64,000 nt of DNA from Hyphomicrobium sp. CS1GBMeth3 (GTDB lineage: Bacteria; Pseudomonadota; Alphaproteobacteria; Rhizobiales; Hyphomicrobiaceae), in contig NZ_FPHO01000003.1 in assembly GCF_900117455.1 (NCBI RefSeq), forward strand, positions 682,001 through 746,000, in the 5' to 3' direction. Of the stretch, positions 3,133 to 20,687 are shown in pieces (within the stretch, counting starts at the first letter, position 1; each line of letters starts with the position of its first letter). A program made the position numbers and the translations under genes. The notes beneath the pieces were generated by a model. That model had not been told where the DNA came from and did not search any database. It was given only the letters and a program-made list of their open reading frames with translations.

Positions 3133-3141
3133 CGCCTCCCC

Positions 3142-4221
3142 CTATCTCAAGAGCCGCAAGCGATGGCGCACGAAGAAATCCGATGACGCAACGCAGATCA
3201 CGATGATCGCCTGCACGAGTTGCACCATCGACCCCGGGATCTGATAGAAGACTTGCAGGCTCTGGCCACCGACAAAGAGCACGGCGACAAGCAACGCGAC
3301 GATGATCGCCGCGATCGGATTGTTGCGGGCCAGGAAGCCGATCAGGATGCCGGAGAACCCGTAGCCGACGAAATAGGATTGAGTGAGCCGGTATTCGACG
3401 CCCGCGCTGATGGCAAAGCCCGCAAGCCCCGAGAGCGCGCCCGACAGCATCGCTGAAATCAGGATGACCGCTGTCACCGGCAATCCTGCCGCCGCCGCCA
3501 TGCGCGGATTGGCATGCACGACGCGCGTGAAGAACCCGAAACGGCTGAGGTTGAGCAGCCACCACGCCAGCAGCGCGAGAACGAGCGCTAGCGGCAGCGC
3601 GTAGGTCAGGTTCTCCCAGCCGACGAGACCGAGGCGCTCCGCCGTACCGAATTGCTCGGAGTTTGGAAAGCTGCTCTTGGGATCGCGCCACGCGCCATAG
3701 AGCAAGTGCAAGAGAAAGTTGAAAGCCACGTAGTTGAGCAGCAGCGTCGAAATGATCTCGTTGATGCCAAGCCGGATGCGCAGCAACGTCGGCACCACGA
3801 TCCAAGCCATTCCGGCCGCCGCTGCGGCGAGCCCCATAAGGAGCAGCCGGATGGATGGCGGGCCGATGTCGTTGATAGCGATCGCCGTCGCAGCGATCGA
3901 GCCGAGAATCATCTGTCCTTCGATGCCGATGTTCCAGAAGCGCACCCGAAACGCCACCGCTGCGCTCAATCCCACAATGAGCAGCGGCGCGGCCTGAACC
4001 AGCACGGCCGAAAGGCTCTGCGGGCTCGAGAAAATCGCAACGACAAACTCGTTGACGAGATCGCCGGGACCGACGCCTGAGGCCATAAGAATCAGCGTCG
4101 CAATGGCGAGACCTATGCCTAGACCGCCAGCAATGATCGCCGCCTGAAGCAGTGGAGATGCATTCTGGCGAAGCTCGATATTGATCCGCTTGGGCGGCAA
4201 CGGCCGCAGGTAATCAGCCAT
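3142..4221 (-). CDS. BMP-type ABC importer, first permease subunit (YufP/NupP-like)
   Basis: Inner-membrane permease of 359 residues. An N-terminal cytoplasmic tail is followed by about nine hydrophobic segments. NIGIEGQMILGSIAATAIA and VVHANPRMAAAAGLPV match the BPD_transp_2 permease pattern. The ATG at 4221 overlaps the end of the ATPase gene by 8 bases, indicating translational coupling. Two different permeases plus one double ATPase is the normal make-up of BMP/Nup importers. Transport of a purine-like or other N-rich ring compound is inferred from the Mo-hydroxylase genes in the same operon. Confidence 0.88.
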   Translation of the reverse strand: MADYLRPLPPKRINIELRQNASPLLQAAIIAGGLGIGLAIATLILMASGVGPGDLVNEFVVAIFSSPQSLSAVLVQAAPLLIVGLSAAVAFRVRFWNIGIEGQMILGSIAATAIAINDIGPPSIRLLLMGLAAAAAGMAWIVVPTLLRIRLGINEIISTLLLNYVAFNFLLHLLYGAWRDPKSSFPNSEQFGTAERLGLVGWENLTYALPLALVLALLAWWLLNLSRFGFFTRVVHANPRMAAAAGLPVTAVILISAMLSGALSGLAGFAISAGVEYRLTQSYFVGYGFSGILIGFLARNNPIAAIIVALLVAVLFVGGQSLQVFYQIPGSMVQLVQAIIVICVASSDFFVRHRLRLLR

Positions 4222-5716: not shown

Positions 5717-5733
5717 CGATACGCCGCGACACC

Positions 5734-6822
5734 TTATTTCTGGCTGATCACGCCGTCGACGAACCAGTCCATCTTCCAGAGATCGGCGTCTCCGAGGACC
5801 TGCCCAGCGGCCACGCGCTCGGTGCCGTCGCGATCCTTGAGCGGACCGGCATAGATCTTCAGCTTGCCGTCGATGATCTCCTGACGGGCCGCCATGATCT
5901 TCTCCTTGGCTTCCGCCGACACGGCCGAGCCGCAGCACGCGATATCGGCGCCGCCCTCGTTGATGGAGAGAAACGCGCCGTACGGCTGCGTCTCCCAGGA
6001 GCCCGACGCGATCTGCTTGATCTCGGGCTCGAGGTAACGGTCCCACACCCAGGCGGACGAGCACTGCACGGCCTTGGGCGCGAATTCCGTCAGATCACGA
6101 TGATGACCCGTGCCGTAGACACCCTTCTCCTGCGCCACGATCTGCGTGGCGGGCGTATCGACGTGTTGACCAATAACATCGATGCCCTGCTCGATCAGAG
6201 CCTCCGCCGCAGCGCGCTCTTTGACGGGATCGTTCCAGGCGCCGGTGAAAATAACCGTCACCGTGGCCTTTGGATTCATCTGGCGCGCCCCGAGCGCATA
6301 GGCATTCACGGTCCAGTTGACGAGACCGAAGGGGTTCGCCGCGACGAAGCCGATCTTGCCGTCCTTCGATGCCGCCCCGGCGGCCATGCCGCACAGATAG
6401 TGGCTCTCGTATGTACGGCCGTAGAAGCTCTGGAGGTTGGGGCCATTCGTGGTGCCGGCCGGATTGAGGAACGCGACGTCGGGATACTTATCGGCCAGCT
6501 CCTTGAAGGTGTCGGAGTAGCCGAACGCCGAGCCGATGATGACGTTGAATCCGCGCTGAATGAACAGTTCGACGGCCGGACGGATTGCAGTCGCATTCTC
6601 CGGCACATTCTCGACCACGGGGATCTTGATCCCCATGCTCTTCTCCATCCGCTGACGCGCTTCGTCCAGCGATTGCGACCAGCCGCCATCATTCTTCTGC
6701 GAGAAGATGATCAAGGCAGGCTTGGGCTCGCCCTTGAGCTTGAAAGCAGCCACGCTGGGCGATGCCAGGACAAGTGTGCCGAGCAGTGCTGTGGCCAGTG
6801 ATTTCGATAACCCTGAGAACAT
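5734..6822 (-). CDS. BMP family ABC transporter substrate-binding protein
   Basis: Periplasmic binding protein of 362 residues in the BMP/PnrA-like family, whose studied members bind nucleosides or purines. A Sec signal peptide covers about residues 1-26 and ends in SPSVAA; it is not a lipoprotein signal. The mature part has the family features FNVIIGSAFGYSD, YPDVAFLNPAG and GYRTYESHYLCG-like segments, and KIGFVAANP near the domain hinge. It is the first gene of the transporter block and lies 112 bases after the Mo-hydroxylase large subunit on the same strand. That association makes the Mo-enzyme's substrate or a precursor the likely ligand, by inference. Confidence 0.88.
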   Translation of the reverse strand: MFSGLSKSLATALLGTLVLASPSVAAFKLKGEPKPALIIFSQKNDGGWSQSLDEARQRMEKSMGIKIPVVENVPENATAIRPAVELFIQRGFNVIIGSAFGYSDTFKELADKYPDVAFLNPAGTTNGPNLQSFYGRTYESHYLCGMAAGAASKDGKIGFVAANPFGLVNWTVNAYALGARQMNPKATVTVIFTGAWNDPVKERAAAEALIEQGIDVIGQHVDTPATQIVAQEKGVYGTGHHRDLTEFAPKAVQCSSAWVWDRYLEPEIKQIASGSWETQPYGAFLSINEGGADIACCGSAVSAEAKEKIMAARQEIIDGKLKIYAGPLKDRDGTERVAAGQVLGDADLWKMDWFVDGVISQK

Positions 6823-6934: not shown

Positions 6935-9322
6935 TCAAGCCGCAGTGAGTGCGACGTGAATCATGCTCGGTGTGATCGGCACGTGCCGGAATGGCGCCGC
7001 ACCCAGCGGACGCAGCGCGTCCTCGATCGCCGACGCCACGACTGCACCCACTGGAATGCAGCCCGCTTCACCCACGCCCTTGACCCCAAGCGGATTGAGC
7101 GGCGACGGCGTCTCGAGATGCAGGATCTCGACCGGCGGCACTTCGGTCGCGTACGGCACGAGGAAATCGACGAAGCTGGCGTTGATCGGATTGCCCTCGG
7201 CATCAAAATCGATGTGCTCGTAGAGCGCACCTCCAAAACCCTGCGCGATACCGCCCATGATCTGCCCCTCGACGATCGTCGGATTGATCATCTTCCCGCA
7301 ATCATGGACGCAGACGTAGCGCAGCACCTTGACGGCGCATGTCTCCGGATCGACCTCGACAATTCCGGCGTGAACGCCATAGGCCCAGGTCGCGCTCGGC
7401 GGGCTGTAGTAATCGGTTGCCTCGAGGCCCGGATGCTCGCCAGGCCGCAACGATGGTCCGTCGTGCCGGCTCGCCGGAGCGAACTGGGTCGCGGCCTTCG
7501 CTGCCTCGTTGAACGCGTAGCGCAGTGGGTTCGTCGCCGTTGCGATCGCGGCTAGCGAAACGCTGCGATTGGTACCGCGAACCCACGCCGCGCCGCCACG
7601 AAGCTCGATGTCTGCGGGATCCACCTCCAGCATGTTTGATGCGGCTTCTATGGTCTTCTTGCGAACGATCGCCGCCGACTGATGGATGGCGTTGCCCGAG
7701 ACAACCGCCGCGCGGCTGGCAAACGTCGCCACACCCCAGTCATAGGCCTTCGTGTCGCCTTCGACGACGATCACGTCCTCCACCTCGACGCCGAGCTGAT
7801 CGGAAACGATCTGCGCGAAGATCGTGTCGTGTCCTTGGCCTTGCGTCGTTAAACCAGTGTTGACGTACACCTTGCCGGTGATGGGATGAACGCGAACGTG
7901 GCCGCCTTCGTACGGCCCGAGTCCCGTCCCCTCAATGTAGAAGGCAAGTCCAAGTCCGATGTATCGGCCCTCCGCTCGCGCCTTCTCCTGCTCTCTGGCG
8001 AAACCCGACGGGCTAATGGCCTCCGAAACCATCTCGAGCGCACGATGATACTGTCCGCTATCGAGACTGACCGGTAGACCATCGGCGAAGAGCAGGCCTG
8101 CACGTAGAACCGGAAACTCGTGATCAGCGATGAGATTGCGCCGGCGCACCTCAAAACGGTCGAGGCCGAGCTCCAACGCAAGCTGATCCATCGCCCTCTC
8201 GATGGCGAAGTTTGCCTGCGGACGACCGCAACCGCGGTAGGGCGTCACGGGCGTCGTCGGCGTATAGACGGAGCGGAACTCCACATCGATGTGATTGATG
8301 CGGTACGGCCCCGCAATGGACGTCGAAGCCACCTGCGGAATGGCGATGCCATAGGGAATGAACGCACCGGTGTCGTGCAGAAAGGTATCGCGCAAAGCCA
8401 GCACTTCGCCGGTCTTCTTTGCGAACAGCTCGATGGTGTGGATCTGCGTGCGCTCTTGCGACGAGCCGATGAAGTTCTCGCGCCGATCTTCGATGAACTT
8501 GACGGGACGTCCCAAATCCCGCGCCGCCATCGGCACCAGAAGCTCGTCGGGATAGAACTGATAGACCTTCTGGCCGAAACCGCCGCCCACATCGGGGGCG
8601 ATGACACGCACCTTGTCCTCGTCTATATCCAGGATGGACGCCAGGGCACCCCGGACCGAGATCGGCGCTTGCGTGCCGTCCCAGACCGTCAACTCGCCTG
8701 TCGTGGTATCGAAGACTGCTGCCACGGCACGGCATTCCATCGGGGCCGCGGTCGAGCGATCGATCTGCACGCGAATGCGCGTAACATGCTCCGCCTGCGC
8801 AATGGCCGTGTCAGGATCTCCGCAGATCTGCCGGAACTCCGCCGCGATGTTCTTCGGATGCGTCGCGTGAACAAGCGGCGCGTCATCGAGAACCGCCCGC
8901 TCGAGATCGAGCTCGACCGGCAGCGGCTCATAGTCGATGTCGATCAGCGCGGCCGCATCCTCTGCGGCATAGCGATCGACGGCGACGATCATCGCCACCG
9001 GCTGGCCAACGTAGTAGACGTCGCCGCGCGCCAGCGGACGCTGCGTGCGCGGGTCGGTCATCGACGGATGCGGGATGAGCTGCGGCAACTCGCAATCAAG
9101 TGGACCTGAATTGTCGGCCGTGTAAACCGCGGCGACGCCGGGATGGGCCCGGGCAGCCGTCACGTCGATCGAAAGGATCTTGGCGCGCGCGAACGGGCTA
9201 CGCACGAACGCCGCGTGCAGCGGATTGGTCAGCGGAATATCGTCGACAAAAGCTCCCTCGCCGCGCAGGAGCTTGGGATCTATGTTTCGCTTGATGCGGC
9301 TTCCGAAGGCGCGCGTAGACAT
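6935..9322 (-). CDS. Molybdenum hydroxylase large subunit (CoxL-like, molybdopterin-binding)
   Basis: Complete 795-residue catalytic subunit. The N-terminal MSTRAFGSRIKRNIDPKLLRGEGAF-like part is the standard CoxL/XDH start. Cofactor motifs are GGGFGQKVY (about residue 249), PYRGCGRPQ (about 362) and GVKGVGEAGC near the C-terminus, whose Glu is the catalytic base. The AYRCSFR loop of true CO dehydrogenase is absent (PYRGCG instead), so it should not be called CoxL; it is a general hydroxylase acting on an aromatic N-heterocycle or aldehyde. It is the third gene of a medium-small-large set and lies 12 bases after the iron-sulfur subunit. Confidence 0.92.
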   Translation of the reverse strand: MSTRAFGSRIKRNIDPKLLRGEGAFVDDIPLTNPLHAAFVRSPFARAKILSIDVTAARAHPGVAAVYTADNSGPLDCELPQLIPHPSMTDPRTQRPLARGDVYYVGQPVAMIVAVDRYAAEDAAALIDIDYEPLPVELDLERAVLDDAPLVHATHPKNIAAEFRQICGDPDTAIAQAEHVTRIRVQIDRSTAAPMECRAVAAVFDTTTGELTVWDGTQAPISVRGALASILDIDEDKVRVIAPDVGGGFGQKVYQFYPDELLVPMAARDLGRPVKFIEDRRENFIGSSQERTQIHTIELFAKKTGEVLALRDTFLHDTGAFIPYGIAIPQVASTSIAGPYRINHIDVEFRSVYTPTTPVTPYRGCGRPQANFAIERAMDQLALELGLDRFEVRRRNLIADHEFPVLRAGLLFADGLPVSLDSGQYHRALEMVSEAISPSGFAREQEKARAEGRYIGLGLAFYIEGTGLGPYEGGHVRVHPITGKVYVNTGLTTQGQGHDTIFAQIVSDQLGVEVEDVIVVEGDTKAYDWGVATFASRAAVVSGNAIHQSAAIVRKKTIEAASNMLEVDPADIELRGGAAWVRGTNRSVSLAAIATATNPLRYAFNEAAKAATQFAPASRHDGPSLRPGEHPGLEATDYYSPPSATWAYGVHAGIVEVDPETCAVKVLRYVCVHDCGKMINPTIVEGQIMGGIAQGFGGALYEHIDFDAEGNPINASFVDFLVPYATEVPPVEILHLETPSPLNPLGVKGVGEAGCIPVGAVVASAIEDALRPLGAAPFRHVPITPSMIHVALTAA

Positions 9323-9334
9323 CGTCCCCCTCCC

Positions 9335-9865
9335 TCAGCGAATCGCGAGCCGCTCAGCCGCCTGCCGGTAGGCAGCGACGATGTTCTGGTACCCGGTGCA
9401 GCGGCAAAGATTGCCCGCCAGCACATTGCGGATGCCCTCCTCGGAAAGATCCACGGGCTGCCCGGACTCGAAGTGGCTGAGGATGTTCATGATGAAGCCC
9501 GGCGTGCAGTACCCGCACTGCAGGCTATGACAATCGCGAAACGCTTCCTGCAAGGGATGGAGCGCCCCATCTTCCGCCGCAACGGACTCGATGGTGCGGA
9601 CGGTGGCGCCCGAGGCCTGCACCGCCAGCGTCAGACACGAGCGAGCAGCCGCACCATTGATCATAACCGTGCAAGCGCCGCATACGCCGTGCTCGCATCC
9701 CACGTGCGTACCTGTGAGACCGACCTCATGACGCAGGAAATCCGAAAGCAGCATGCGCACACTCACCTCGCGCGTAACCGTTTCGCCGTTGATGGTGAGC
9801 GTCACCTCGGATTTCGGATCCTCCGAGGTCGTGGGTAGCTTGGGTTTTATTTTTCTGCGCTGCAT
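9335..9865 (-). CDS. Molybdenum hydroxylase small subunit, (2Fe-2S)-binding
   Basis: A 176-residue electron-transfer subunit. A plant-type ferredoxin domain carries CEHGVCGACTV with a further Cys at ARSCLT, and a helical domain carries CGYCTPGF and CRCTGY; together these hold the two 2Fe-2S clusters of the family. The frame is open to 10387, but that region belongs to the FAD subunit in another frame. The ATG at 9865 gives the family length, with a somewhat long basic N-terminus (about 20 residues). It sits 8 bases after the FAD subunit. Electrons pass from the Mo centre through this protein to FAD. Confidence 0.92.
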   Translation of the reverse strand: MQRRKIKPKLPTTSEDPKSEVTLTINGETVTREVSVRMLLSDFLRHEVGLTGTHVGCEHGVCGACTVMINGAAARSCLTLAVQASGATVRTIESVAAEDGALHPLQEAFRDCHSLQCGYCTPGFIMNILSHFESGQPVDLSEEGIRNVLAGNLCRCTGYQNIVAAYRQAAERLAIR

Positions 9866-9873
9866 TCTGATTC

Positions 9874-10731
9874 CTAGCTGACCCGCGAAAGAGCTTTGGA
9901 AACGGTTCGCCCGACCAGCGCCGCAACAAGGCGACGGCGATAATCGGCGGTGGCATGGATGTCGTCCGCTGCGGTGACCGCTTGAGCGGCAGCCTTCCCC
10001 GCCTCCGCGAGCTTGCCCGCGGAAAGATCGCTGCCGTTGAGCACGTCTTGCGCAGCCGTGAGGATGATCGGGCGCGAAGAGATGCCGCCGGCTGCCAGTG
10101 AGACTTCGGCACGCCCACCGAAACGGCGCACGATAGCGCCGACAGACGCGATCGCGTAATCCCCATGCCGGCGTGTGAACTCTAGAAATGCCCAGCCCGC
10201 GCCCGGAGGCAGCGCGGGAAAGCGTGCCTCGACAATGATCTCGCCCGGCAGACGCGACGTGGTCATGTGGAAGGTGAAGAAATCGCGCGCTGCGATCTCG
10301 CGGCGGCCTTGTGGGCCTTCGGCAACAACGGCGCCACCGGTCAAAAGCAGAAGCAGAGGCAATTCGGCTGCGGCGTCGGCGTGACACAGACTGCCGACCA
10401 CCGTGCCACGATTTCGTATCGGCACATGCGCGACGTTCGCAATCGTCTCGCGAATGAGCGGGTTGGCTTGAAAGGCCGCGTCACTGAGCTCGAGCTCGCG
10501 GTGACGCGTCATGGCCTTGACGACGATCCGCCCATTGGAGACGTCAATGCCGCGCAACCCGTCGACGTGCTGGATGTCGACGAGCCGGGACGGGCTCGAG
10601 AGGCGAAAGTTCATCGCCGGGATGAGGCTTTGGCCTCCAGCGAGCACCATGGCCCCCGGATCGTTCGCCAGGAGAGAAATAGCTTCGGGTAGGGTCCGCG
10701 GAGCGGAGTACTCGAACAGCGGCGGCTTCAT
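9874..10731 (-). CDS. Molybdenum hydroxylase medium subunit, FAD-binding (CoxM-like)
   Basis: A 285-residue FAD-binding subunit with both family motifs: LAGGQSLIPAMNFRL (about residues 35-49) and RGTVVGSLCHADAAAE (about 110-125), followed by the CO-dehydrogenase flavoprotein C-terminal domain. The ATG at 10731 (MKPPLFEYSAP) is the standard start; an in-frame extension to 10758 lacks support. It is the first gene of the minus-strand operon (medium, small, large, binding protein, ATPase, two permeases), preceded by a 290-base control region with palindromes at 10874 and 10889. Confidence 0.92.
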   Translation of the reverse strand: MKPPLFEYSAPRTLPEAISLLANDPGAMVLAGGQSLIPAMNFRLSSPSRLVDIQHVDGLRGIDVSNGRIVVKAMTRHRELELSDAAFQANPLIRETIANVAHVPIRNRGTVVGSLCHADAAAELPLLLLLTGGAVVAEGPQGRREIAARDFFTFHMTTSRLPGEIIVEARFPALPPGAGWAFLEFTRRHGDYAIASVGAIVRRFGGRAEVSLAAGGISSRPIILTAAQDVLNGSDLSAGKLAEAGKAAAQAVTAADDIHATADYRRRLVAALVGRTVSKALSRVS

Positions 10732-10873: not shown

Positions 10874-10890
10874 TATCCATATATTGGATA
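10874..10890. promoter_or_regulatory. Putative operator: TATCCA-N5-TGGATA inverted repeat before the Mo-hydroxylase/BMP operon
   Basis: The 17-base element TATCCATATATTGGATA has 6-base arms around a 5-base spacer. It lies 143 bases upstream of the FAD-subunit start in an AT-rich patch. Nearly the same sequence (TATCCATATAGTGGATG) occurs before hyuA at 19769, and the same layout (ATCCG-N5-CGGAT) in the IclR/amidase gap at 13400. This fits a binding site for one regulator, most simply the IclR protein at 13464. Binding is inferred. Confidence 0.6.
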
Positions 10891-10910
10891 TCGTATTCGT
10901 TATTACGATA
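10889..10910. promoter_or_regulatory. Second inverted repeat in the Mo-hydroxylase promoter region (TATCGTA-N8-TACGATA)
   Basis: Perfect 7-base arms TATCGTA (10889-10895) and TACGATA (10904-10910), abutting the first operator. It may bind a second regulator or be an extended part of the same site. The remainder of 10732-11025 is AT-rich relative to its surroundings and has no coding signal. Confidence 0.4.
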
Positions 10911-11025
10911 CCGGCACGGTGCCTGATGTCAATCTCCGAAGCTGATTTAAAAGTGAGATTGCGCTTCTGTCGCAGGTTCTGCGCATAAAAAAACGCACAC
11001 GCACGGATACGATCATTCGCTTGTC

Positions 11026-11904
11026 TCATTCCTCGTCCGGAGCGCCGCGATTGACCAACGCCACACCTGCGAGAATGAGGCCAACTGCGATCCAGACATG
11101 GAGCGACAGACGCTCGGAGAAGAACAGCACGGCGAAAGCAACGCCGACGCTCGTATTCACATAGCTGATCTGGCTCAGATAAACGGGTCCACCAACCTGC
11201 TGAAGCCGGAAATAGAATGCATAGCCGATCCCAATGGCGAGACTTTGTAACGCGACGAGGGCGAAGCCGACAGTCGATGGCAATGCAAGAGACGGCGCGA
11301 ATCCCAGCAGTGGCAGCACACTTGCGAGCAGCGCGACGCCGACGGCTGCGCCCGCCAACGTGAGCATCGCAAGCGGCAACGGACCATGACCGGCGGGCCA
11401 ATGCGTCGTGCGGAAAATATTGCCCACTGCAAGTGTAGCCGGCGTCACGAGCGCCAGGAGATACCAGCCGAGATGGGCCTGATTTTGCGCACTGTCGCTG
11501 TTGCGCTCAATGAGAATGACCATCGTACCCGCAAGACCGATCAGCAAACCGGCAACGCGAAGCAGATTCGGCCGCTCGACACCCAACGCGGCGACGAGAC
11601 CAAGCGTGAGAATGGGCGTGAGGGATTGCAGGATGGCGGGAATAGCCGAGCCGAGATGGGGAATGACCAGGAGCATCGTTGCAAACGGTATCGCGAACGT
11701 AAGCGGTCCGGCGATAGCCGCATACACAAGCGTCGAGGCGTCCAAAACAATGGGTTTACCCAAGATCCTGCAAACAACCGCAAGAACCGCGCTCGCACCC
11801 GCAGCCGAGGTTCCCGCGTAGACGAGCGGCGACAAACCCAGGTCGACCGCGATTTTACCGAACGGAAAAATCAGGCCGATGCAGGCGCCGGATGCAAACA
11901 ACAA
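11026..11904 (-). CDS. EamA/DMT family membrane transporter
   Basis: A 292-residue membrane protein with two EamA repeats and about ten hydrophobic segments. The first repeat ends near LAGTMVILIE and the second near VGLILAGVALVNR, the usual repeat ends of drug/metabolite exporters. No ATG is available: the frame opens directly after the amidase stop codon, so the start must be TTG at 11904 or another non-ATG codon between 11905 and 11940. The first helix begins almost at once, so only a few residues can be missing. It shares an operon with the amidase and may export or import a pathway compound; the substrate is unknown. Confidence 0.82.
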   Translation of the reverse strand: MLFASGACIGLIFPFGKIAVDLGLSPLVYAGTSAAGASAVLAVVCRILGKPIVLDASTLVYAAIAGPLTFAIPFATMLLVIPHLGSAIPAILQSLTPILTLGLVAALGVERPNLLRVAGLLIGLAGTMVILIERNSDSAQNQAHLGWYLLALVTPATLAVGNIFRTTHWPAGHGPLPLAMLTLAGAAVGVALLASVLPLLGFAPSLALPSTVGFALVALQSLAIGIGYAFYFRLQQVGGPVYLSQISYVNTSVGVAFAVLFFSERLSLHVWIAVGLILAGVALVNRGAPDEE

Positions 11905-11940
11905 TAGCAGGGGTTCGAGGCGTTGCAGGATCGGAGGGCC

Positions 11941-13359
11941 TTATGCCAGGGTTACCGGATCGACGGGAGCGGAAAGCGCAGAGCCCAGCACCGCCTCGCA
12001 CCAGGCCGCCGTCTGCAACAGCTCCGTTTCGCCATAGGGCCTGCCCACGATCTGCAATCCAATAGGCAAGCCGGATGCCGTCCGCCCGCAAGGAATCGAT
12101 ATAGCGGGACAGCCGCAGACCGTAGCAGCATAGCCAAGCACAAGCCAATCGAGGTAAGTCGAGAGCTTGTGTCCATCTATCTCGTCGACGTATCGCTGCT
12201 CAACGGGAAACGGCGCAACAGGCGCAGTGGGCGTAATCACCGTACAACGCGTTTCGAGAAAAGCGAGCATAGACTGGCGCAACCGCACCCGTTCCTCTTC
12301 CGCCGCCGCGAGATCCGCAGCGGTGAGCTTGAGCCCCTCCTCGATATTCCACACCACCTCGGGCTTGAGTTTGCTGCGAACACGCGCCAGTGCATCGCGT
12401 CTCAGCGCGGCGAACTGAAAAGCCCGCAGCGGACGGAACGCGCGATCGGCCCCGCTCAGATCCGGATGCGCCTCCTCGACTCTGAGCCCCTCACTCGCAA
12501 GACGCTCAACAGCCCGCGTAACAATCGCGCGCACCTCCGGATCGACCTTCGCAATACCGAGATCGATGCTGAAAGCAGCGCGGCGTGGTCGGCGCGGCGC
12601 CAGCGCGGCAGTGAGATAAGACCCACCGTCACGGGATCGGGTCAGCGGATCGCGCGCATCGAAGCGCACCATGCCATCAAGCGCAAAAGCGGCGTCTGCG
12701 ACGCTACGTGCGATGGGACCGACGACGGAAAGCACCTGGAACGGCAGCGCATTCGGTCCTTGCGGGACCAGCCCTGCCGTGGGCCGAAGCCCCACCACGT
12801 TGCAGAATGCCGCCGGATAGCGAAGCGAGCAGGCAAAATCCGATCCCTGCGCCAGAAACGCCATGCCGGTAGCGACGGCCACCGCCGCGCCTCCGGATGA
12901 GCCGCCTGCTGAACGCGTGGGGTCGAAGGGGTTCAAAGTCCGTCCGAACACCTCGTTGAAGGTGTTGGCGCCGGCTTCGAACTCGGGCGTGTTCGATTTG
13001 GCGTACACGATGCCGCCTGCCGCCTCGATCGCCTCCACCGCGTAGTCTGACGTTTCCGCGATGTGATCGGCATACGCCAAGGAGCCATAGGTCGTCCGGA
13101 CGCCCGCCACATCGTAGGAGTCCTTGATCGGCCACGGCAGACCGGCAAACCGGCCGCGTTTCAGCACCGGCCTGGATTCGAGCTCTGCCGCGGCCCGCTC
13201 CGCACGCTCGAAGCAGAGTGTCGGAAGCGCATTGACTTTGGGATTGACCTCCTCGACGCGCTTGCGCACCACGGCAAGCAACTCCCGCGGCAAGAAGTCC
13301 CCTCGAACAAGCCCATGAACAGCGGCCCGCGCTGACATTGCCCACAATGGACCCGTCAT
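11941..13359 (-). CDS. Amidase signature family hydrolase
   Basis: A 472-residue enzyme of the amidase signature family, which hydrolyses amide or carbamoyl bonds with a Ser-cisSer-Lys triad. The Lys lies in PIKDSYDV, the cis-Ser in SAGGSSGGAA, and the nucleophile in GSDFACSLRYPA, where the common TGGS reads FACS. The start at 13359 faces the IclR gene; internal Met codons (for example residue 8) are alternatives. The TAA stop is followed in the same frame by the EamA gene. In this cluster it could hydrolyse an amide made after ring opening, by inference. Confidence 0.88.
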   Translation of the reverse strand: MTGPLWAMSARAAVHGLVRGDFLPRELLAVVRKRVEEVNPKVNALPTLCFERAERAAAELESRPVLKRGRFAGLPWPIKDSYDVAGVRTTYGSLAYADHIAETSDYAVEAIEAAGGIVYAKSNTPEFEAGANTFNEVFGRTLNPFDPTRSAGGSSGGAAVAVATGMAFLAQGSDFACSLRYPAAFCNVVGLRPTAGLVPQGPNALPFQVLSVVGPIARSVADAAFALDGMVRFDARDPLTRSRDGGSYLTAALAPRRPRRAAFSIDLGIAKVDPEVRAIVTRAVERLASEGLRVEEAHPDLSGADRAFRPLRAFQFAALRRDALARVRSKLKPEVVWNIEEGLKLTAADLAAAEEERVRLRQSMLAFLETRCTVITPTAPVAPFPVEQRYVDEIDGHKLSTYLDWLVLGYAATVCGCPAISIPCGRTASGLPIGLQIVGRPYGETELLQTAAWCEAVLGSALSAPVDPVTLA

Positions 13360-13398
13360 GGCACGTGCCTCACCCGGTTATTCGAACTATTAGTATCG

Positions 13399-13415
13399 CA
13401 TCCGTTGAGCGGATA
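13399..13415. promoter_or_regulatory. Putative operator in the amidase/IclR divergent gap (ATCCG-N5-CGGAT)
   Basis: The element CATCCGTTGAGCGGATA contains ATCCG (13400-13404), spacer TTGAG and CGGAT (13410-13414). Its layout equals that of the sites at 10874 and 19769, with G/C replacing A/T at the inner arm position. It lies between the divergent amidase (13359) and IclR (13464) starts, where an autoregulatory site is expected. Confidence 0.5.
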
Positions 13416-13463
13416 GATCTCTTGGCCTATGACAGTGCGGTCCTCCCACTTGGAACGCGGCAT

Positions 13464-14312
13464 ATGACAACCAAAAAATCCACGGCCGGTTCGGGCCGTG
13501 CGGCGAAATCCACCCAGAAGGCCAAAAAATCTACCCCCTCGGCTCTGAAGGACAGTCCGCTTCGAGGAATGGTGCGCTCCTTCGCCGTGCTGGAATACCT
13601 GGCTGCCTCGCCGAGCAGAGTTGTGGAGGTAACGCGAGCGCTCAACCTCCCGTGGGCGACGGTGCATCGCACCATCATCCAGCTTGAAAAGGCGCAGTTT
13701 CTGCGGCGCGATCCTGAGACCAACCGCTACGAGATCGGCCCGCGCCTTTGGTACGTCGGCTCGGCGTATCTCTCCAATCACCGCGTGCTCAAGGTTGCCC
13801 TGCCCTACCTCTCGCGCCTCGAATCCGTGGAGGGCATCGCCATGCAGGTCGTGGAGCGCATCGGCTGGCAATCGGTAGCGATCTATTCTCATCAGCGGGT
13901 CGACGAGGACATCACCAAAGCACACTACGGCTATCACTTCCCGCTCCACTGCAGCTCGAAGGGCCATGTCCTGTTGGCAAACGAGGACCCGGCATTCATC
14001 GAGACCTATCTGAAGCGCGACCTCGAACGCCTGACGCCCGAGACCATCACCGATCCCAAGGTCCTTCGTAATATCCTGGAAGAAGTCCGCGAGGATGACT
14101 TTTCGCTGACGGTTGCCGACGTGCAAATGTTTACCGGATCGATGTCTGCACCGATCCGCGATTCTTCCGGACGCGTGATCGCCTGTCTGAGCTTCGTCTT
14201 CCGCAAGACGTTGCTCAAGAACGAGAAGCGGCGCGACGAGCTGCAGGAGAGGTTGATGCAGGCCGCGCATTCGATCTCGCTGGATCTCGGCTGGCGGCCG
14301 GGCCAACGCTGA
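13464..14312 (+). CDS. IclR family transcriptional regulator
   Basis: A 282-residue regulator. A Lys/Ser-rich N-terminal tail is followed by a winged helix-turn-helix (MVRSFAVLEYLAASPSRVVE to WATVHRTIIQLE, about residues 40-85) and an IclR effector-binding domain (about 105-275) with GYHFPLHCSSKGHVLLA and SAPIRDSSGRVIACLS. The frame is open from 13338, but that would overlap the amidase start; ATG 13464 gives a normal length. It is divergent from the amidase and lies within the catabolic island, so it is the best candidate to read the shared ATCC-N7-GGAT sites. IclR regulators often sense an aromatic or ring-cleavage compound. Confidence 0.9.
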   Translation: MTTKKSTAGSGRAAKSTQKAKKSTPSALKDSPLRGMVRSFAVLEYLAASPSRVVEVTRALNLPWATVHRTIIQLEKAQFLRRDPETNRYEIGPRLWYVGSAYLSNHRVLKVALPYLSRLESVEGIAMQVVERIGWQSVAIYSHQRVDEDITKAHYGYHFPLHCSSKGHVLLANEDPAFIETYLKRDLERLTPETITDPKVLRNILEEVREDDFSLTVADVQMFTGSMSAPIRDSSGRVIACLSFVFRKTLLKNEKRRDELQERLMQAAHSISLDLGWRPGQR

Positions 14313-14375
14313 GACCCACGCGCGTTGCTGCCCATCCGCGCCGGCCGTGAGGCGATGGAGCGGATGGCCCAGCAT

Positions 14376-15188
14376 TCAGCGACGCTCCTCATACGACCCG
14401 CGTAAGTTCCGGAACGTCTCCTCAAGTGCGTCGACGGTCGTCTTGATAAAGGCTTCACCCGCCTCCGCCGTTGCCGGTGTCGGATCACCGAAGATCGCCG
14501 CATGGCCCGCTGCGGGACGGGGACGGCGCACATACGTGCGAACAGGTTCCGTCGGTGCAACGAGATCCCATCCCACGGGGCCGTAGTTGGCACCGGAAAG
14601 ACGATCCATTTTGACGAGATCGGGCCGCGTCGCGAGCTGGAATGCCGTCTCGAACTCGCAGCCATGCCCCATGCCGCCCGCAACGGACTTCCGCATAGCA
14701 TGAATCTTGTCGGCCGCAGGCTCCCAATAGCTGAGTGCCGACACCTTGAAGGTATGCTCCGTATCGAGTTCATCGACGAGATGGCGCGCCACCGCATCGT
14801 TCGCCGTGCCGTTCGGACGATTGCCGTTGAGGATGATCAGGTGCGTGAAGCCCTGCTTGATCAGCGCCGCACCTATCTCGAACAGCATGAGCTGATAAGT
14901 CGGGATAGAAAGCGAGATCGTGCCGGTAAAAAACTCGAACGTTTTGGAAACGCCATAGGCGACGGGCGGAGCTACCAAGGCATTGATACGTTGCGCCAGA
15001 AGCCACGCGATGTGCTCGGCCTGATGCGTGTCCGTATCGGTCGGCATGTGCGGACCATGCGCCTCGGTGGCGCCGGTCGGCAGGATGACGGGACGCTCCG
15101 CCGCGATCGCCGCGGCAATCTCCATCTGCGTCATAAACGACATACGATGTTCCATGGCGGCTCCGTCGATGGCTGCGCTCGGTTTCAC
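14376..15188 (-). CDS. Creatininase family protein (probable amidohydrolase)
   Basis: A 270-residue member of the creatininase family of metal-dependent cyclic amide hydrolases. The N-terminal GATEAHGPHMPTDTD motif (about residues 38-52) supplies the usual Glu, His and Asp metal ligands, and GHGCEFETA supplies the later His/Glu motif. The middle motif, usually NGHGGN, reads NGNRPN, so the His at that position is lost. It is the last gene of the hyuA-hyuB-coxG operon, 7 bases after coxG. The start could also be one of the internal Met codons (residue 12 or 16). Creatininase itself opens creatinine; here the ring substrate is unknown. Confidence 0.82.
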   Translation of the reverse strand: MKPSAAIDGAAMEHRMSFMTQMEIAAAIAAERPVILPTGATEAHGPHMPTDTDTHQAEHIAWLLAQRINALVAPPVAYGVSKTFEFFTGTISLSIPTYQLMLFEIGAALIKQGFTHLIILNGNRPNGTANDAVARHLVDELDTEHTFKVSALSYWEPAADKIHAMRKSVAGGMGHGCEFETAFQLATRPDLVKMDRLSGANYGPVGWDLVAPTEPVRTYVRRPRPAAGHAAIFGDPTPATAEAGEAFIKTTVDALEETFRNLRGSYEERR

Positions 15189-15195
15189 AAGCGGT

Positions 15196-15774
15196 CTAAT
15201 CCTGTAGGGAAGGTTTGCGGCGGCGGAAGAGAGAGGCGATCAGCAGGCCAATAAGGCGAAGAATGCTGATGTCGTTCGACTTGCCCGTCGACGCTTGCGA
15301 CTCCGCGGCCGGCGCCGTGTCCGGCAAAGCCTCCAATCTCTGCTCGACGTTGCGGGCAAACTGTTCGACCAGGATGCCTGCCGTCTCCGTGATGATGCCG
15401 GTACGCCCGAATTGCGTGATGGGTCCGGAAAGCTGCACGTCGGCATCAATGTCGACCTGCGTCGTGCTCGCCCCGGCCTCCGAGACCTTGTAATCGAGCA
15501 CGAGCTTCGAGCGGCTTCCCCCACGCTTGTCGAGGCCACGCCCTTCGACACGGCCGCTATGGTCAGCTTCGTTCTGTGTAACTTTCGCCTCGCCTTCGAA
15601 CGACGCACTGAAGGGCCCGAGCTTGATACCGACGCGCCCCGCGTAGGCGCCGTCCCCCTTATCCTCCGTCAGCTCGGCACCCGGCATGCATGCCGCAACC
15701 GTTGGGATGTCCTGCATCAGAGCCCAGACGGCCGGCAAAGGACGGGCGACTTGAAACGACTTCGTGATCTTCAT
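15196..15774 (-). CDS. CoxG/SRPBCC family protein with C-terminal membrane anchor
   Basis: A 192-residue CoxG family protein. The SRPBCC domain starts at MKITKSFQVARPLPAVWALM and includes DIPTVAACMPGAEL, the typical CoxG opening. A linker rich in Ala/Ser and a hydrophobic, then basic tail (ILRLIGLLIASLFRRRK) suggest a membrane anchor. CoxG proteins accompany molybdenum hydroxylases and are thought to recruit the enzyme to the membrane. Its place in the hyu operon therefore ties that operon to the Mo-hydroxylase genes. ATG 15774 is chosen over the in-frame extension to 15900, which overlaps hyuB. Confidence 0.88.
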   Translation of the reverse strand: MKITKSFQVARPLPAVWALMQDIPTVAACMPGAELTEDKGDGAYAGRVGIKLGPFSASFEGEAKVTQNEADHSGRVEGRGLDKRGGSRSKLVLDYKVSEAGASTTQVDIDADVQLSGPITQFGRTGIITETAGILVEQFARNVEQRLEALPDTAPAAESQASTGKSNDISILRLIGLLIASLFRRRKPSLQD

Positions 15775-15799
15775 GTCGAACCCCCGAGCTATATCGAGA

Positions 15800-17692
15800 T
15801 TAGAGGACGGGCCGCGCCGACCAGCCCGCTTCGGGATCAGCCCAGTCCTCGGGCCGGGACACTTTCCCCTCGGCCTTGAGCTTTTCGTAATAAGGGCCAC
15901 GGTCGAACATGGGAGCCGTGCCGCGCGCGTCGATCAACGACTTGCGCCGCGCCTCGGTTGCGGCGAGATCCGCCGTCCACTTGCGTCCCTCCGCCTTCAA
16001 TACGACGCCGTAGTTGTCATGCGCGGATTGCGGCGAGATGAGCCCACACTGCACGTCGTAGACGACTTTCTCGACCGGCCGCTGCAGCGGATCGCCCCAG
16101 CCGCCCCCGCCTGTCGTTATGATGCGGACAGACGAGCCGGGCGCTACCGTGACGGTGTCGCACATGCCGGGATGAACCGTTTCCGTCCCGTCCGCTTGGA
16201 TGACGGAGACCTGATAATTCGCACCGGCCTTGCCGCCGTTGACGCCGTAGCAGCCCAGCAGCGACCGATCGGCGTTCGAGATCAGGCGGCATTCGCCGAG
16301 CGTCTTGATGCGCTTGTCGTAGCCCATACCGCCCCGATGATAGCCGGGCCCGCCGGATCCCTCCTTGAGGGCGAGCTGCTCGACAAGGATCGGATAGCGC
16401 GTCTCGGAAAACTCGGCCGGCAGGTTCTTTGAGTTCGGAACGATGTGCACCACATCCGAGCCGTCCGCCCACGGCCGGCCAGGGCTTCCGCCGCCGAGAA
16501 CCTCGCGGAACAGATAAAAGTCTTCCGAGCTGCGTCCGCCCGTGAGCCCCCAGATGCGGATGGTCTCATGGTCCGCCGGCATACGCCCGTCCGTCGCCTT
16601 GGAGAGACAAGCGGCAAAGCAGCCGAGCGTACGCAACATGAGGAAAAAGCGCATGCCCGTGGGTTTTCCGAAGGTCGGCGTGATCAGCGTTCCCTTTTGC
16701 GGAAAGACCACCTCGAGAACGTCGAGAACGCCCTCGTTGGAATCGATTTCCGCCGCCCGCTCCGGCGAGTCCGCGAGCGAGCGGAGCGTCGGTGCCAACC
16801 ATTTGCGGAAGTAGCGGCCATCGGCTTCGTCGAGCGACCAGTTGATCGGTCCCTTCGCTTCGGGATCGGTGCCGGTGAAATCGAGCACGATCTTTTCCGG
16901 CGTCTTGATCATCTTCACGCGCAAGGCGTGCAGCCGCGGCTCGTCGACGCCGTCGGCCTCGATGTAGTCCTCGAAATGATACTCGCCGTCCTCGATGCGA
17001 GGTAGAATCTCGCGGCGGAAAATCTCCGTCGTATTCTTGAGGATCTGATCGAAAGCCGCCTCGAGCGTGTCGACGCCGTAGCGCTCCGCCAGAGCAACGA
17101 TACGGCGCGAGCCGAGCATGGCGGCTCCGATCTCGGCATCGAGATCGCCAGCAAGATGATCGGAAAGCCGCGAGTTTCTGACGATGATGCGGAACGCGGC
17201 CTCATTGAGCTTGCCACGCTCATAGAGCTTGATCGGCGGAATGAGCACGCCTTCCATCCAGCTGTCCGTGGCGTGCACCGGCAGGCTGCCCGGCACCGCA
17301 CCACCGACGTCATCGTGATGGCCGAACACCTGGCTGAATCCGATCAGCCGCTCGCCGTGGAAGATCGGCACCGTCGTGCACAAATCCGGCACATGGCCGA
17401 TCGAGCCGCAAGAGTTGTAGGGATCGTTCCAGAAGAATACGTCCCCCGGATGAATGTTGTCGGCACCGAAGTATTCGAACACCGGCTCTACAATGGCCGA
17501 ATAGGAGCGCCCCGTGAGCTTGCGTCCACGCGCATCGAACAGTGCAACGCGATAATCGTGCTGGTCGCGGATCATCGGCGAGCGGGCCGTTCGCTCCACG
17601 GCCGCTTCGATCTCAAGCTCCGCCGCGCGGATGGTGCCATGGATGACTTCGAGCTCGATTGGCCCCAGTGCAGCGCGTGTTTGCTTCAACAT
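15800..17692 (-). CDS. hyuB: Hydantoinase B/oxoprolinase family protein (HyuB-like)
   Basis: A 630-residue B subunit of the ATP-dependent N-methylhydantoinase/5-oxoprolinase/acetone carboxylase family. The start MLKQTRAALGPIELEVIHG, the PIRDQHD-like segment, PYNSCGSIGHVPD, and TGGRSSEDFYLF with GGSGGPGYHRGG-type glycine motifs are family marks. The ATG at 17692 lies 11 bases after hyuA; a longer open frame to 17857 overlaps hyuA. With HyuA it should open a cyclic imide or lactam using ATP. It is followed by coxG and the creatininase-family gene. The exact substrate (hydantoin, N-methylhydantoin, oxoproline or a related ring) cannot be read from sequence. Confidence 0.9.
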   Translation of the reverse strand: MLKQTRAALGPIELEVIHGTIRAAELEIEAAVERTARSPMIRDQHDYRVALFDARGRKLTGRSYSAIVEPVFEYFGADNIHPGDVFFWNDPYNSCGSIGHVPDLCTTVPIFHGERLIGFSQVFGHHDDVGGAVPGSLPVHATDSWMEGVLIPPIKLYERGKLNEAAFRIIVRNSRLSDHLAGDLDAEIGAAMLGSRRIVALAERYGVDTLEAAFDQILKNTTEIFRREILPRIEDGEYHFEDYIEADGVDEPRLHALRVKMIKTPEKIVLDFTGTDPEAKGPINWSLDEADGRYFRKWLAPTLRSLADSPERAAEIDSNEGVLDVLEVVFPQKGTLITPTFGKPTGMRFFLMLRTLGCFAACLSKATDGRMPADHETIRIWGLTGGRSSEDFYLFREVLGGGSPGRPWADGSDVVHIVPNSKNLPAEFSETRYPILVEQLALKEGSGGPGYHRGGMGYDKRIKTLGECRLISNADRSLLGCYGVNGGKAGANYQVSVIQADGTETVHPGMCDTVTVAPGSSVRIITTGGGGWGDPLQRPVEKVVYDVQCGLISPQSAHDNYGVVLKAEGRKWTADLAATEARRKSLIDARGTAPMFDRGPYYEKLKAEGKVSRPEDWADPEAGWSARPVL

Positions 17693-17703
17693 TGCCGCTT
17701 CCC

Positions 17704-19755
17704 TCAGACGTTCTTTTCCAGGATGAGATTGCCATAGGCATCCGTGCGCACGCGCCAGCGATCCGGCACCACGACGGTCGAGCCGTACTCTTCGACGATG
17801 GCCGGCCCTTGGACAGACTGATCTGTCGCGAGTTCGTTCCTTCTGTAGAGCGGACAATCAACCCATCCGCTCTGGCGCCAATAGGCCTTGCGTGTTGCAA
17901 ACGGTTGCGCCACCTCCTGCCGCGTAGCGTTGGGCTTGAGCGACGGACGGTGCTGGACACCGATCGCCTGCACGCGCAGATTCACGAGCTCGACGTCCTG
18001 TTTGCCCTCGTAGTGGAACCCGAAAGTCTGATCGTGCACGCGGTGGAAATCCTTCCACATATGCGCAATCGCCTGCTCGCCCGAGAGGTCTGCAGGGATA
18101 TCGACCTGCACCTCATGGCCCTCGCCGAAATAACGCACGTCCGCAATGCGGCGGATCTGGATCCGCTCCGCCGGAATATTCTCGGCCGAAATATCCGCAA
18201 CGCCGGATGCCGCCAGCTCATCCCATGCCTTGAGGATCTCACCTGTGTCGGCCGTCGACTGCTGACACACGAGCGTGCGGATATAGTCGCGCCGCACATC
18301 CGAGACATGCAGTCCCAGCGCGCAGAGATTGCCGGGATTGGGCGGTGAGATGATCGTCCGGATATCGAGAAAATCCGCAACCTCTGTGGCGAACAATCCG
18401 CCGGCGCCGCCGAACGACACCATGGCAAACGCCGAAGGATTCCGCCCGCGCGTCGTGGTGACCTGGCGAATGCCGAACACCTGGTTGACGGCGGCGATCT
18501 CGAGCACACCCGCCGCAACTTCCTCGGCCGTCATGTCGAGGTTGCGGCCGAACGCGACGTAGGCCGCCCGCGCGGCTTCCGCGTCAAGCTTGATGCTGCC
18601 GCCAACCAACGCAGTCGGAAGGCGCCCGAGCGTGATGGCAGCGTCCGTTACTGTGGGTTGAGTACCGCCACGACCGTAACAGATCGGGCCGGGATCCGCG
18701 CCGGCACTCTGCGGGCCGACTTTGAGCTGACCATAAGCGTCGACCCACGCGATTGAGCCGCCGCCCGACCCCACGGTGACGATGTCCAGCATCGGCGTCT
18801 TGACCGGATAGCTCTCGACCATCGATGCCGACGTGTAGGACGGCTTCAAGTCTTCGATAATCGCCACGTCGGTCGATGTCCCGCCGACATCGATCGTCAG
18901 GATGTCCCGATAACCAGCAAGCTCGGCCATGTGGATCGAGCCCAGAATGCCTGCCGCCGGCCCTGACAGCAGCATCGTCACTGGCCGGTCGCCGGCTGTT
19001 GAATGCTTCACCACCCCGCCGTTCGACTGCATGATCAGAAACGGAATGTTGCCGGCTTGCGCGCGAATGCGGTCTGCGGCGCTCTGCAGATAGGTCTTGC
19101 AGTAAGGCTTCACCAGGACGTCAACCAGCGTCGTCATCGCGCGCTCATACTCGCGATATTCCGGCAGCACTACCGACGACAGAGAGACGAAAACGTCGGG
19201 AAAATTGGCCTTTAGCAGCTCACCAACCCGCTGCTCGTGGGCGGCATTCGCGTACGAATGAAGCAGGCACACGCCGATGCAGCGAGCGCCATCTTCCACA
19301 AGCTCCCGCGCGGCCTCGATGACCGCCTCCTCATCGAGCGGCTCGAGCTCGGAGCCGTCGAACGCCATGCGGCCAGGCACCTCGCGCACCAGATGCAGGG
19401 GCACGAGACGCGGCGGCTTCACCCAGAAAAACGAGTTGCCGTAACCATCCGGAACGGACTGGCGCGCGATCTCGATCATGTGCCGAAAACCGCGGGTAAC
19501 AAGAAGGCCGAGCCCGGCGAACTTGTGCTCGAGCACTGCATTGGTAGCAACCGTCGATCCATGCAGCAGCATGCGCACATCGCTGTCCGCGCCGCCGACT
19601 TCCGCCAGCGCCTTCCGCACTCCTTCAAGGAGACCGATGCTCGGGTCACCGGGTGTCGATGGCGTTTTGACGGCGGTAATCGCCCCTGTGCCCTCGTCGA
19701 TGGCGACGACGTCCGTGAAAGTTCCGCCTGTATCGATGGCGATCCGCAGCCCCAT
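17704..19755 (-). CDS. hyuA: Hydantoinase/oxoprolinase family protein, A subunit (HyuA-like)
   Basis: ATP-binding A subunit of about 683 residues. It has the actin-like nucleotide fold: phosphate 1 loop RIAIDTGGTFTDVV at the N-terminus, LHGSTVATNAVLE, the second loop TIDVGGTSTDVAII and SFGGAGGLFA. The ATG at 19755 (MGLRIAIDTGG) is preferred; an in-frame extension of 11 residues reaches into the operator. HyuA phosphorylates the ring carbonyl and HyuB completes hydrolysis in this family. It is the first gene of the hyuA-hyuB-coxG-creatininase operon. It faces the isochorismatase-family gene across a 260-base gap holding the shared operator. Confidence 0.9.
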   Translation of the reverse strand: MGLRIAIDTGGTFTDVVAIDEGTGAITAVKTPSTPGDPSIGLLEGVRKALAEVGGADSDVRMLLHGSTVATNAVLEHKFAGLGLLVTRGFRHMIEIARQSVPDGYGNSFFWVKPPRLVPLHLVREVPGRMAFDGSELEPLDEEAVIEAARELVEDGARCIGVCLLHSYANAAHEQRVGELLKANFPDVFVSLSSVVLPEYREYERAMTTLVDVLVKPYCKTYLQSAADRIRAQAGNIPFLIMQSNGGVVKHSTAGDRPVTMLLSGPAAGILGSIHMAELAGYRDILTIDVGGTSTDVAIIEDLKPSYTSASMVESYPVKTPMLDIVTVGSGGGSIAWVDAYGQLKVGPQSAGADPGPICYGRGGTQPTVTDAAITLGRLPTALVGGSIKLDAEAARAAYVAFGRNLDMTAEEVAAGVLEIAAVNQVFGIRQVTTTRGRNPSAFAMVSFGGAGGLFATEVADFLDIRTIISPPNPGNLCALGLHVSDVRRDYIRTLVCQQSTADTGEILKAWDELAASGVADISAENIPAERIQIRRIADVRYFGEGHEVQVDIPADLSGEQAIAHMWKDFHRVHDQTFGFHYEGKQDVELVNLRVQAIGVQHRPSLKPNATRQEVAQPFATRKAYWRQSGWVDCPLYRRNELATDQSVQGPAIVEEYGSTVVVPDRWRVRTDAYGNLILEKNV

Positions 19756-19768
19756 GCCGTTCTCCGAA

Positions 19769-19785
19769 TATCCATATAGTGGATG
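19769..19785. promoter_or_regulatory. Putative operator before hyuA (TATCCA-N5-TGGATG)
   Basis: TATCCATATAGTGGATG matches the element at 10874 in 15 of 17 positions, including both inner arms ATCCA/TGGAT. It lies 14 bases upstream of the hyuA start, where bound repressor would block transcription or initiation. A second inverted repeat follows at 19793. Confidence 0.6.
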
Positions 19786-19792
19786 CAATATT

Positions 19793-19807
19793 CATATTAT
19801 GTATATG
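19793..19807. promoter_or_regulatory. AT-rich inverted repeat CATAT-N5-ATATG in the hyuA/isochorismatase gap
   Basis: CATATTATGTATATG has 5-base arms with the same 5-base spacer as the neighbouring operator, 8 bases away. It could be a weaker second site for the same protein or promoter DNA. The rest of 19808-20015 shows no other signal beyond a ribosome site (AGAGGA, 20001-20006) for the divergent gene. Confidence 0.3.
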
Positions 19808-20015
19808 CGGGAGGGCAAAGGCAAGCTAGGATCGAGGGCGTGAGACGGGACGGAAAGCCGCGGGGATGGGGATCGGGTCGACACATCGCACAGCGTCTGA
19901 AAACGGCGCGATCCGCTTCGGAAAGCGATCATCGTGCACCGTCCGCATGCACGAACTGCGTCTATTTCGGGCGCGACCCGATCACTCGTGACCAATGCTG
20001 AGAGGATGAGAAGTG

Positions 20016-20687
20016 ATGCGAGCCTACATTGACGGAAAGCCGCGTGACCTGGGACCGGAGTTCGCCCCTTATTTCGACAAGTCGAAGCTCGCGATCGTAT
20101 CCATCGACCTGCATCGTGGGCATCTCGAGGACTCCCCGGATTGCCCTTGTCCCGCGCCGCGCGCGAGAGAGATCGTTCCCGCAGTTGATACCTTTCACGA
20201 CAAAGCTCGCGCCCTCGGCATTCCGATCATTCATGTGCGCAGCATTCTGCGCAAAGGCGGCGTCGATGACATCAACGGCCTGAAAGCCGCGTGGCGCCTC
20301 GTCTTTCCACTCCACGTCGGGCCGATCCCGAACGCCGACGAGCACGCAATCGCAGGAACTCGCTGGAACGAGTTCGTTACCCGCGTCGATGACAGCGATC
20401 TCATCGTCGAGACCAAGAAGCGCCTGACGGCATTTTATCCGAGCGATCTCGACTTCCTGCTTCGCAACATGGGCGTGAAGGCGCTGATCCTGGACGGATG
20501 CCTCACGGATTGCTGCGTCTTGAACACGGCGTTCGACGCATCAAACCTCGGCTATCGCGTTACCGTTGTTCGCGATCTCGTTCGCGGGACAACCGCGGAG
20601 ATGGAAGACGCAGCCCTGCGCATCGTCGCTCTGCATCTCGGCCTTGTCGTCGATGCCGAGATGGCCCTGAGTAACCTGTCGTCCTAG
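20016..20687 (+). CDS. Isochorismatase family cysteine hydrolase
   Basis: A 223-residue cysteine hydrolase. The triad is Asp in VSIDLHRGH (about residue 32), Lys in ETKKRLTAF (about 130) and Cys in DGCLTDCCVLNTA (about 166). This family includes N-carbamoylsarcosine amidohydrolase, maleamate amidohydrolase and biuret hydrolase. Beside HyuA/HyuB the first is attractive, because N-methylhydantoinase produces N-carbamoylsarcosine, but this is inference from context. ATG 20016 has AGAGGA upstream; GTG 20013 is an alternative. It is divergent from hyuA and so may share the operator at 19769. Confidence 0.88.
   Translation: MRAYIDGKPRDLGPEFAPYFDKSKLAIVSIDLHRGHLEDSPDCPCPAPRAREIVPAVDTFHDKARALGIPIIHVRSILRKGGVDDINGLKAAWRLVFPLHVGPIPNADEHAIAGTRWNEFVTRVDDSDLIVETKKRLTAFYPSDLDFLLRNMGVKALILDGCLTDCCVLNTAFDASNLGYRVTVVRDLVRGTTAEMEDAALRIVALHLGLVVDAEMALSNLSS

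Follow-up and report, generated by a model that had tools for sequence, protein, structure and literature searches.

The main text of a survey of IclR-family regulators (Suvorova and Gelfand 2021, PMC8222616) predicts tandem IclR sites for 94 of 181 orthologous groups, with 18–22 nucleotides (nt) between site centres, and reports IclR proteins as tetramers on tandem sites. Here we describe a comparable arrangement in a 64,000-nt stretch of Hyphomicrobium sp. CS1GBMeth3 (NZ_FPHO01000003.1, positions 682,001–746,000; hereafter the window), where three double operators lie in a catabolic island that also encodes an IclR protein. We infer with high confidence that an IclR tetramer occupies the double operators and represses the island until a ligand relieves the repression; the protein probably switches off a gene set degrading a nitrogen-containing ring compound. 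We regard the window's operators as a new and well-supported case of a type of gene switch that is already known. The 37-bp recognition sequence that they give for an uncharacterised regulator is exact and testable, and it marks the member genes of one uncharacterised catabolic pathway in scattered genomes of the class.

The sites resemble the 'group 1' tandem operators described in the main text of the survey in their odd-length, 17-bp palindrome with a YCR...YGR core, in their centre spacing of 20 nt (within the published 18–22 nt), in their position near a gene start and in their catabolic targets (PMC8222616). Over 23 aligned pairs, described below, the group 1 core YCRYW3-4RYGR is present save for the Y next to YCR, which is unconserved. 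The TtgV–DNA complex (2XRO, Lu et al. 2010, via PMC8222616) is distinguished by a recognition helix in the major groove and a cooperative tetramer, features that we propose for the protein studied here. TtgV differs in its targets, which are efflux transporters (via PMC8222616), and at the equivalents of its Arg47 and Gln51, which are Trp and His here by our own Pro-anchored alignment. The best NCBIfam match of the window's IclR is PcaR/PcaU/PobR (TIGR02431), a subfamily likewise made up of catabolic regulators, at 113.6 bits against a cutoff of 284.75 bits. A search of titles and abstract openings found no paper on this regulon, and the terms 'hydantoin', 'molybd' and 'creatinin' are absent from the main text of PMC8222616, whose supplementary tables lay outside both searches.

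A 37-bp double operator in the island

An earlier note on this DNA had reported three 17-bp inverted repeats sharing a 15-bp core, ATCCR-N5-YGGAT, and had taken the single repeat as the recognition unit. We find the repeats exactly where they were placed (10874–10890, 13399–13415 and 19769–19785), the first and third being identical at 15 of 17 bases. The observation is real but incomplete, as each repeat is half of a 37-bp double site: a second, weaker 17-bp copy lies beside each one in an exact 20-bp register (Table 1), so that the unit becomes a pair of 17-bp boxes. Scoring 17-mers against TATYCR-N5-YGRATA (12 positions per box, 24 per pair), we recovered only these three sites as pairs at 20 bp with a score of at least 19 in the window (22, 21 and 22; next best, 18). 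Genome-wide (4.03 Mb), the 37-bp pattern with up to three mismatches in 24 positions has three matches, all in the island, and its reversed control has none.

The short 15-mer is by itself suggestive only and not specific. Its three matches in the window compare with a shuffle mean of 0.49, and 1 of 100 shuffles contained three or more. Across the genome (4,029,367 bp), however, it occurs 32 times, close to the approximately 31 sites extrapolated from the window-shuffle rate, and for that reason it lacks specificity and is ruled out as the full operator. The reversed pattern gave 2 sites; the two controls disagree, and we prefer the shuffle because it keeps dinucleotide content. A whole-genome scan, which the earlier note had suggested as a check, thus speaks against the 15-mer, with 29 matches outside the island (13 of the 15 inspected coincide with a frame that runs for at least 300 codons without a stop), and bears out the 37-mer. 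By a hand estimate, a cluster of three within 9 kb is expected about 0.08 times per genome for 32 sites placed at random. A single 17-mer with up to one mismatch has 45 genome sites versus 22 for its reversed control, and therefore the pair, not the single box, carries the specificity. The repeats had also been placed in the only long intergenic regions of the island; all are intergenic, but a site-free gap between the molybdopterin-subunit and BMP genes (112 bp) matches the iclR/amidase gap (104 bp) in length, as taken from open reading frame (ORF) coordinates.

Conservation of the pair in related loci

We compared nine related loci (L021–L029) whose IclR is 65–78% identical to that of the window, from Aminobacter niigataensis, Mesorhizobium ephedrae, Rhizobiales bacterium Y(2018), Aestuariivirga sp., Methylobacterium dankookense, Hyphomicrobium sp. 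NDB2Meth4, Methylorubrum zatmanii and two Bauldia metagenome-assembled genomes. Each of the nine has pairs in the 20-bp register, standing ahead of at least one of the same genes. Together they have 27 pairs scoring at least 19, all of them outside the tblastn matches to island genes. A pair precedes the gene for the flavin adenine dinucleotide (FAD) subunit of a molybdenum hydroxylase (Mo-hydroxylase) in seven loci (L021–L024, L026, L028, L029), lies in the amidase/iclR gap in six (L021–L024, L028, L029) and precedes hyuA in six (L022–L027). Gene content varies and not every locus has every gene; L025 and L027 have the hyuA pair only.

The spacing is sharply defined. In 150,872 bp from eight non-window loci, L024 being dropped because it is a near copy of L023, we counted 20 pairs scoring at least 20 of 24 at the 20-bp register. 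Other spacings between 17 and 60 gave at most 2 such pairs each (mean, 0.49), and 40 dinucleotide shuffles gave none. Adding the first 26 kb of the window and L024 raises the count to 27, with at most 2 at other spacings and 0 for the reversed consensus. Over 23 oriented pairs (a profile that leaves out the amidase/iclR pairs, L024 and all pairs of three further loci, L075–L077), the proximal consensus is TATCCA.taTgTGGATA, and the information content is 28.0 bits in the proximal box and 19.1 bits in the distal box.

Two boxes in L026 (17456 and 19252) carry 12 of 12 consensus positions. One lies upstream of an isochorismatase gene, within a 7+12 pair, and the other in the N-terminal stretch of a listed XdhC ORF, ahead of the XdhC domain; the genes linked to them are possible further regulon members in Hyphomicrobium NDB2Meth4.

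Co-occurrence of the pattern and the IclR protein across genomes

Among 103 genomes of the family, the IclR (E ≤1e-30) occurs in 2 and the 37-bp pattern in the same 2, with the reversed control in 1 of 103. Among 397 genomes of the order, the IclR (E ≤1e-60) occurs in 5 and the pattern in 16 (reversed control, 10/397). The pattern lies on the IclR contig in the window's own genome (3 matches), G179 (3) and G277 (2), and none of the 392 IclR-negative order genomes has two matches close together. Inspection of single loci showed a pair at 14254 of L052 (207154 of G179:C33), assigned to no gene, and two pairs of 20 in L055, from G318. Five of the 385 class genomes, the window's own included, have the IclR; the flanks of three others were inspected, and pairs are present in L075 and L077 (among them 12+10; 10+11 and 7+12). 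The match in L074 (G841) starts at base 2 of its contig. In plasmid records we found only IclR homologues of 28–30% identity, in 7 records.

In L051 (7740–11269), also from G179, the regulator, hyuAB and creatininase are kept alongside a different Mo-hydroxylase with subunits of 25–40% identity, which looks like an exchange of the oxidation module.

The IclR protein as candidate binder

The protein encoded at 13464, which the earlier note had named as the regulator, is the most likely candidate binder of the double sites. It matches HTH_IclR at 33.8 bits and IclR_C at 98.7 bits (cutoffs 22 and 24), and this is the one IclR_C match in the genome. Seven other stretches match HTH_IclR at 21.6–29.1 bits, six over the cutoff and none with IclR_C. 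The recognition helix of the window's IclR is WATVHRT, and WAT-x-HRT is invariant in 13 of 13 aligned orthologues and also in L075–L077, including L076, which is without a recognisable site. The suggestion that one regulator serves the uptake, oxidation and hydrolysis genes likewise gains support from the conserved pairs in all nine loci, from the co-occurrence within the family and from the published spacing and core.

In the main text of the survey, G/C at the outermost bases or next to them is tied to Arg at positions 28 and 32 of the helix and to Lys at position 28 (PMC8222616). Our own alignment places Trp and His at these positions here, and the sites carry T/A there, which appears consistent, if weakly, with the published rule. 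The same text describes a weak tendency of His32 to go with C at position 10 (PMC8222616), which is not seen, the base being T here.

Promoter geometry and mode of regulation

At the hyuA and FAD-subunit promoters, the predicted −10 lies inside the distal box; the proximal box extends over the start region and the early part of the leader. That the distal box is the weaker of the two is as expected if it must double as a −10. The −35-like TTGACA is also readable, by eye, upstream of the FAD-subunit gene in 8 relatives, in all of which a pair precedes that gene. The operator would consist of two 17-bp inverted repeats (proximal, TATCCA-N5-TGGATA) whose centres, 20 bp or about two DNA turns apart, would place two IclR dimers, probably as one tetramer, on one face of the DNA. 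The bound protein would block RNA polymerase at the promoters of hyuA and of the Mo-hydroxylase operon. Because the predicted −10 and the start region both fall under the boxes, repression relieved by a ligand is likely; a pathway metabolite would release IclR, and the uptake, oxidation and hydrolysis genes would come on together. In the iclR/amidase gap the operator overlaps the predicted promoter of iclR and may confer autoregulation in the window's genome.

IclR might instead bind the same sites and, at some of them, activate transcription or play a dual role. PobR and PcaU work in an activator or dual mode, and PcaR/PcaU/PobR is the best NCBIfam match, below its cutoff; in the iclR/amidase gap, moreover, the order of strong and weak boxes relative to the amidase varies among loci. 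The boxes at hyuA and the FAD-subunit gene nevertheless cover the predicted −10 and start, with a −35 readable by eye, which is not where an activator is expected. We consider this unlikely, and as the binder is common to both, its probability overlaps with that of ligand-relieved repression by an IclR tetramer.

Binding by another regulator, such as the LysR protein encoded at 23015, would draw on the proximity of that gene (approximately 3.2 kb from the hyuA site) and on T-N11-A, the LysR-type pattern, which all three strong boxes satisfy as ATC-N9-GAT. Yet the boxes lie, by eye, on the predicted −10 and start instead of upstream of the −35, the presence of sites tracks IclR across the family genomes, and two palindromes 20 bp apart agree with the IclR pattern in the main text of PMC8222616. 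We judge it very unlikely, as no relative of the LysR protein (tblastn E ≤1e-8) was found in the examined stretches of 17 other loci, of which two share a contig. Chance, in the sense of a frequent 15-mer present three times together by luck, would fit its genome count, which is about the window-shuffle rate, but is negligible given a 37-bp pattern confined to the island and a register that is conserved in relatives and gave no pair of at least 20 in shuffled sequence.

Several points weigh against repression by IclR at these double operators as a general account of the island. We fitted the 37-bp pattern to the sites of the window after seeing them, and therefore independent evidence must come from the relatives; L021–L029, in turn, were selected by their IclR. 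Without the window's own genome, the family comparison comes down to one genome, G039, apparently that of L026. The outer bases here are TAT/ATA, with A as second base in 23 of 23 proximal boxes, as opposed to TGT/ACA, GTT/AAC, WTT/AAW and NGT/ACN in the main group 1 subgroups given in the main text of PMC8222616. A site ahead of iclR itself is not universal among relatives: no pair of at least 19 occurs in the iclR gap of L025, L026 or L027, the last having one single box there. In the order set, 13 of the 392 IclR-negative genomes have 14 scattered pattern matches, and the IclR-positive G318 and G443 have none at that stringency; in L054, from G443, there is only a 7+12 pair, ahead of hyuA. 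L076 (G634:C1 82000–101900) has no pair of at least 18 in 19.9 kb, and its island encodes a 49% identical IclR with the WATVHRT helix, hyuAB and a Mo-hydroxylase. One L051 pair of 19 (8719) falls inside the FAD-subunit coding match and was treated as background. All promoter hexamers were read by eye.

The pathway and the genes of the island

Of the 17 other loci, 7 have genes for malonyl-CoA decarboxylase and/or MatB next to a double operator, and 5 of these have both genes there (L023 is nearly identical to L024). The 7 include L022 (12062–15325) and L051 (15824–18678), where MatB and malonyl-CoA decarboxylase follow the pair in the iclR gap. A further pair occupies the gap between the creatininase gene and malonyl-CoA decarboxylase and/or MatB in L021, L022, L023, L024, L028 and L029 (by Pfam for L022). 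In the window's own genome, malonyl-CoA decarboxylase was not found by a search run without a positive control. The presence of malonate genes in the regulon of relatives narrows the possible pathway products and suggests malonate as an end product. The regulon may encode an oxidative route, so far undescribed, by which an N-heterocycle is converted to malonate. We regard this proposal as possible but doubtful; it is plausible because malonyl-CoA genes accompany the regulon in relatives. After oxidation by the Mo-hydroxylase, the ring would be opened by ATP-dependent HyuAB, by the creatininase-like enzyme or by both; amidase- and isochorismatase-type hydrolases would free ammonia or urea, and MatB with malonyl-CoA decarboxylase would complete the route. 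A pyrimidine or barbiturate-type substrate would fit this route, and a pathway intermediate would be the IclR ligand.

Table 1. Operator boxes, promoter-like elements and genes of the island (window coordinates)
Feature	Position	Strand	Remarks
Proximal (strong) box, Mo-hydroxylase operon operator	10874..10890	-	12/12 consensus positions
Distal box, Mo-hydroxylase operon operator	10894..10910	-	20-bp register; 10/12 positions; overlaps −10-like TATCGT (10905–10910)
Amidase-side box, amidase/iclR operator	13379..13395	.	20-bp register; 10/12 positions
Strong box, amidase/iclR operator	13399..13415	.	11/12 positions; overlaps iclR −35-like TTGAGC
Proximal box, hyuA operator	19769..19785	-	11/12 positions; ends 13 nt ahead of hyuA ATG (19755)
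Distal box, hyuA operator	19789..19805	-	11/12 positions; contains −10-like CATAAT (19796–19801)
−35-like TTGACA, Mo-hydroxylase operon	10927..10932	-	16 bp from −10-like TATCGT; by eye
iclR promoter, −35-like TTGAGC and −10-like TATGAC	13405..13410, 13428..13433		17-bp spacing; by eye
hyuA promoter, −35-like TTGCCT	19819..19824	-	17-bp spacing to −10-like CATAAT in distal box; by eye
BMP-type substrate-binding protein, ATP-binding cassette ATPase and two permeases	2200..6822	-	
Mo-hydroxylase molybdopterin subunit, CoxL-like	6935..9322	-	
ORF containing Mo-hydroxylase [2Fe-2S] subunit	9335..10387	-	Pfam domains at residues 198–340 of 350
Mo-hydroxylase FAD subunit, first gene of operon	9874..10731	-	ORF from 10758; ATG at 10731 chosen
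EamA-type transporter, downstream of amidase	11026..11904	-	Domain search
Amidase-signature hydrolase	11941..13359	-	Pfam Amidase
IclR-family regulator, proposed binder	13464..14312	+	HTH_IclR and IclR_C
Creatininase-family hydrolase	14376..15188	-	
CoxG-like protein	15196..15900	-	
ORF of HyuB, hydantoinase B family	15800..17857	-	Nearest NCBIfam model caprolactamase beta, below cutoff
HyuA, hydantoinase A family	17704..19755	-	Caprolactamase-alpha/N-methylhydantoinase-like, below equivalog cutoff
Isochorismatase-family hydrolase, divergent from hyuA	20013..20687	+	Relatives in L025 and L077 islands; possible regulon member

The large subunit of the Mo-hydroxylase scores above the cutoff of NCBIfam CODH_aero_grp5, and its nearest solved sequences are 6-hydroxypseudooxynicotine dehydrogenase and quinoline oxidoreductase; the nearest solved sequence to HyuA is named N-methylhydantoinase. 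The [2Fe-2S] ORF is about twice its Pfam-covered length and overlaps the FAD-subunit gene, and several relatives match it only from about residue 174; the true start of this subunit is probably near 9866. An ORF on the forward strand (2419–3186), apparently common to the islands, was set aside as a probable antisense artefact, since it matches no Pfam family and a permease ORF (2200–3132, reverse strand) occupies the other strand. At the left edge of the window, a 608-residue ORF (18–1844) encodes the molybdopterin-binding subunit of another Mo-hydroxylase.

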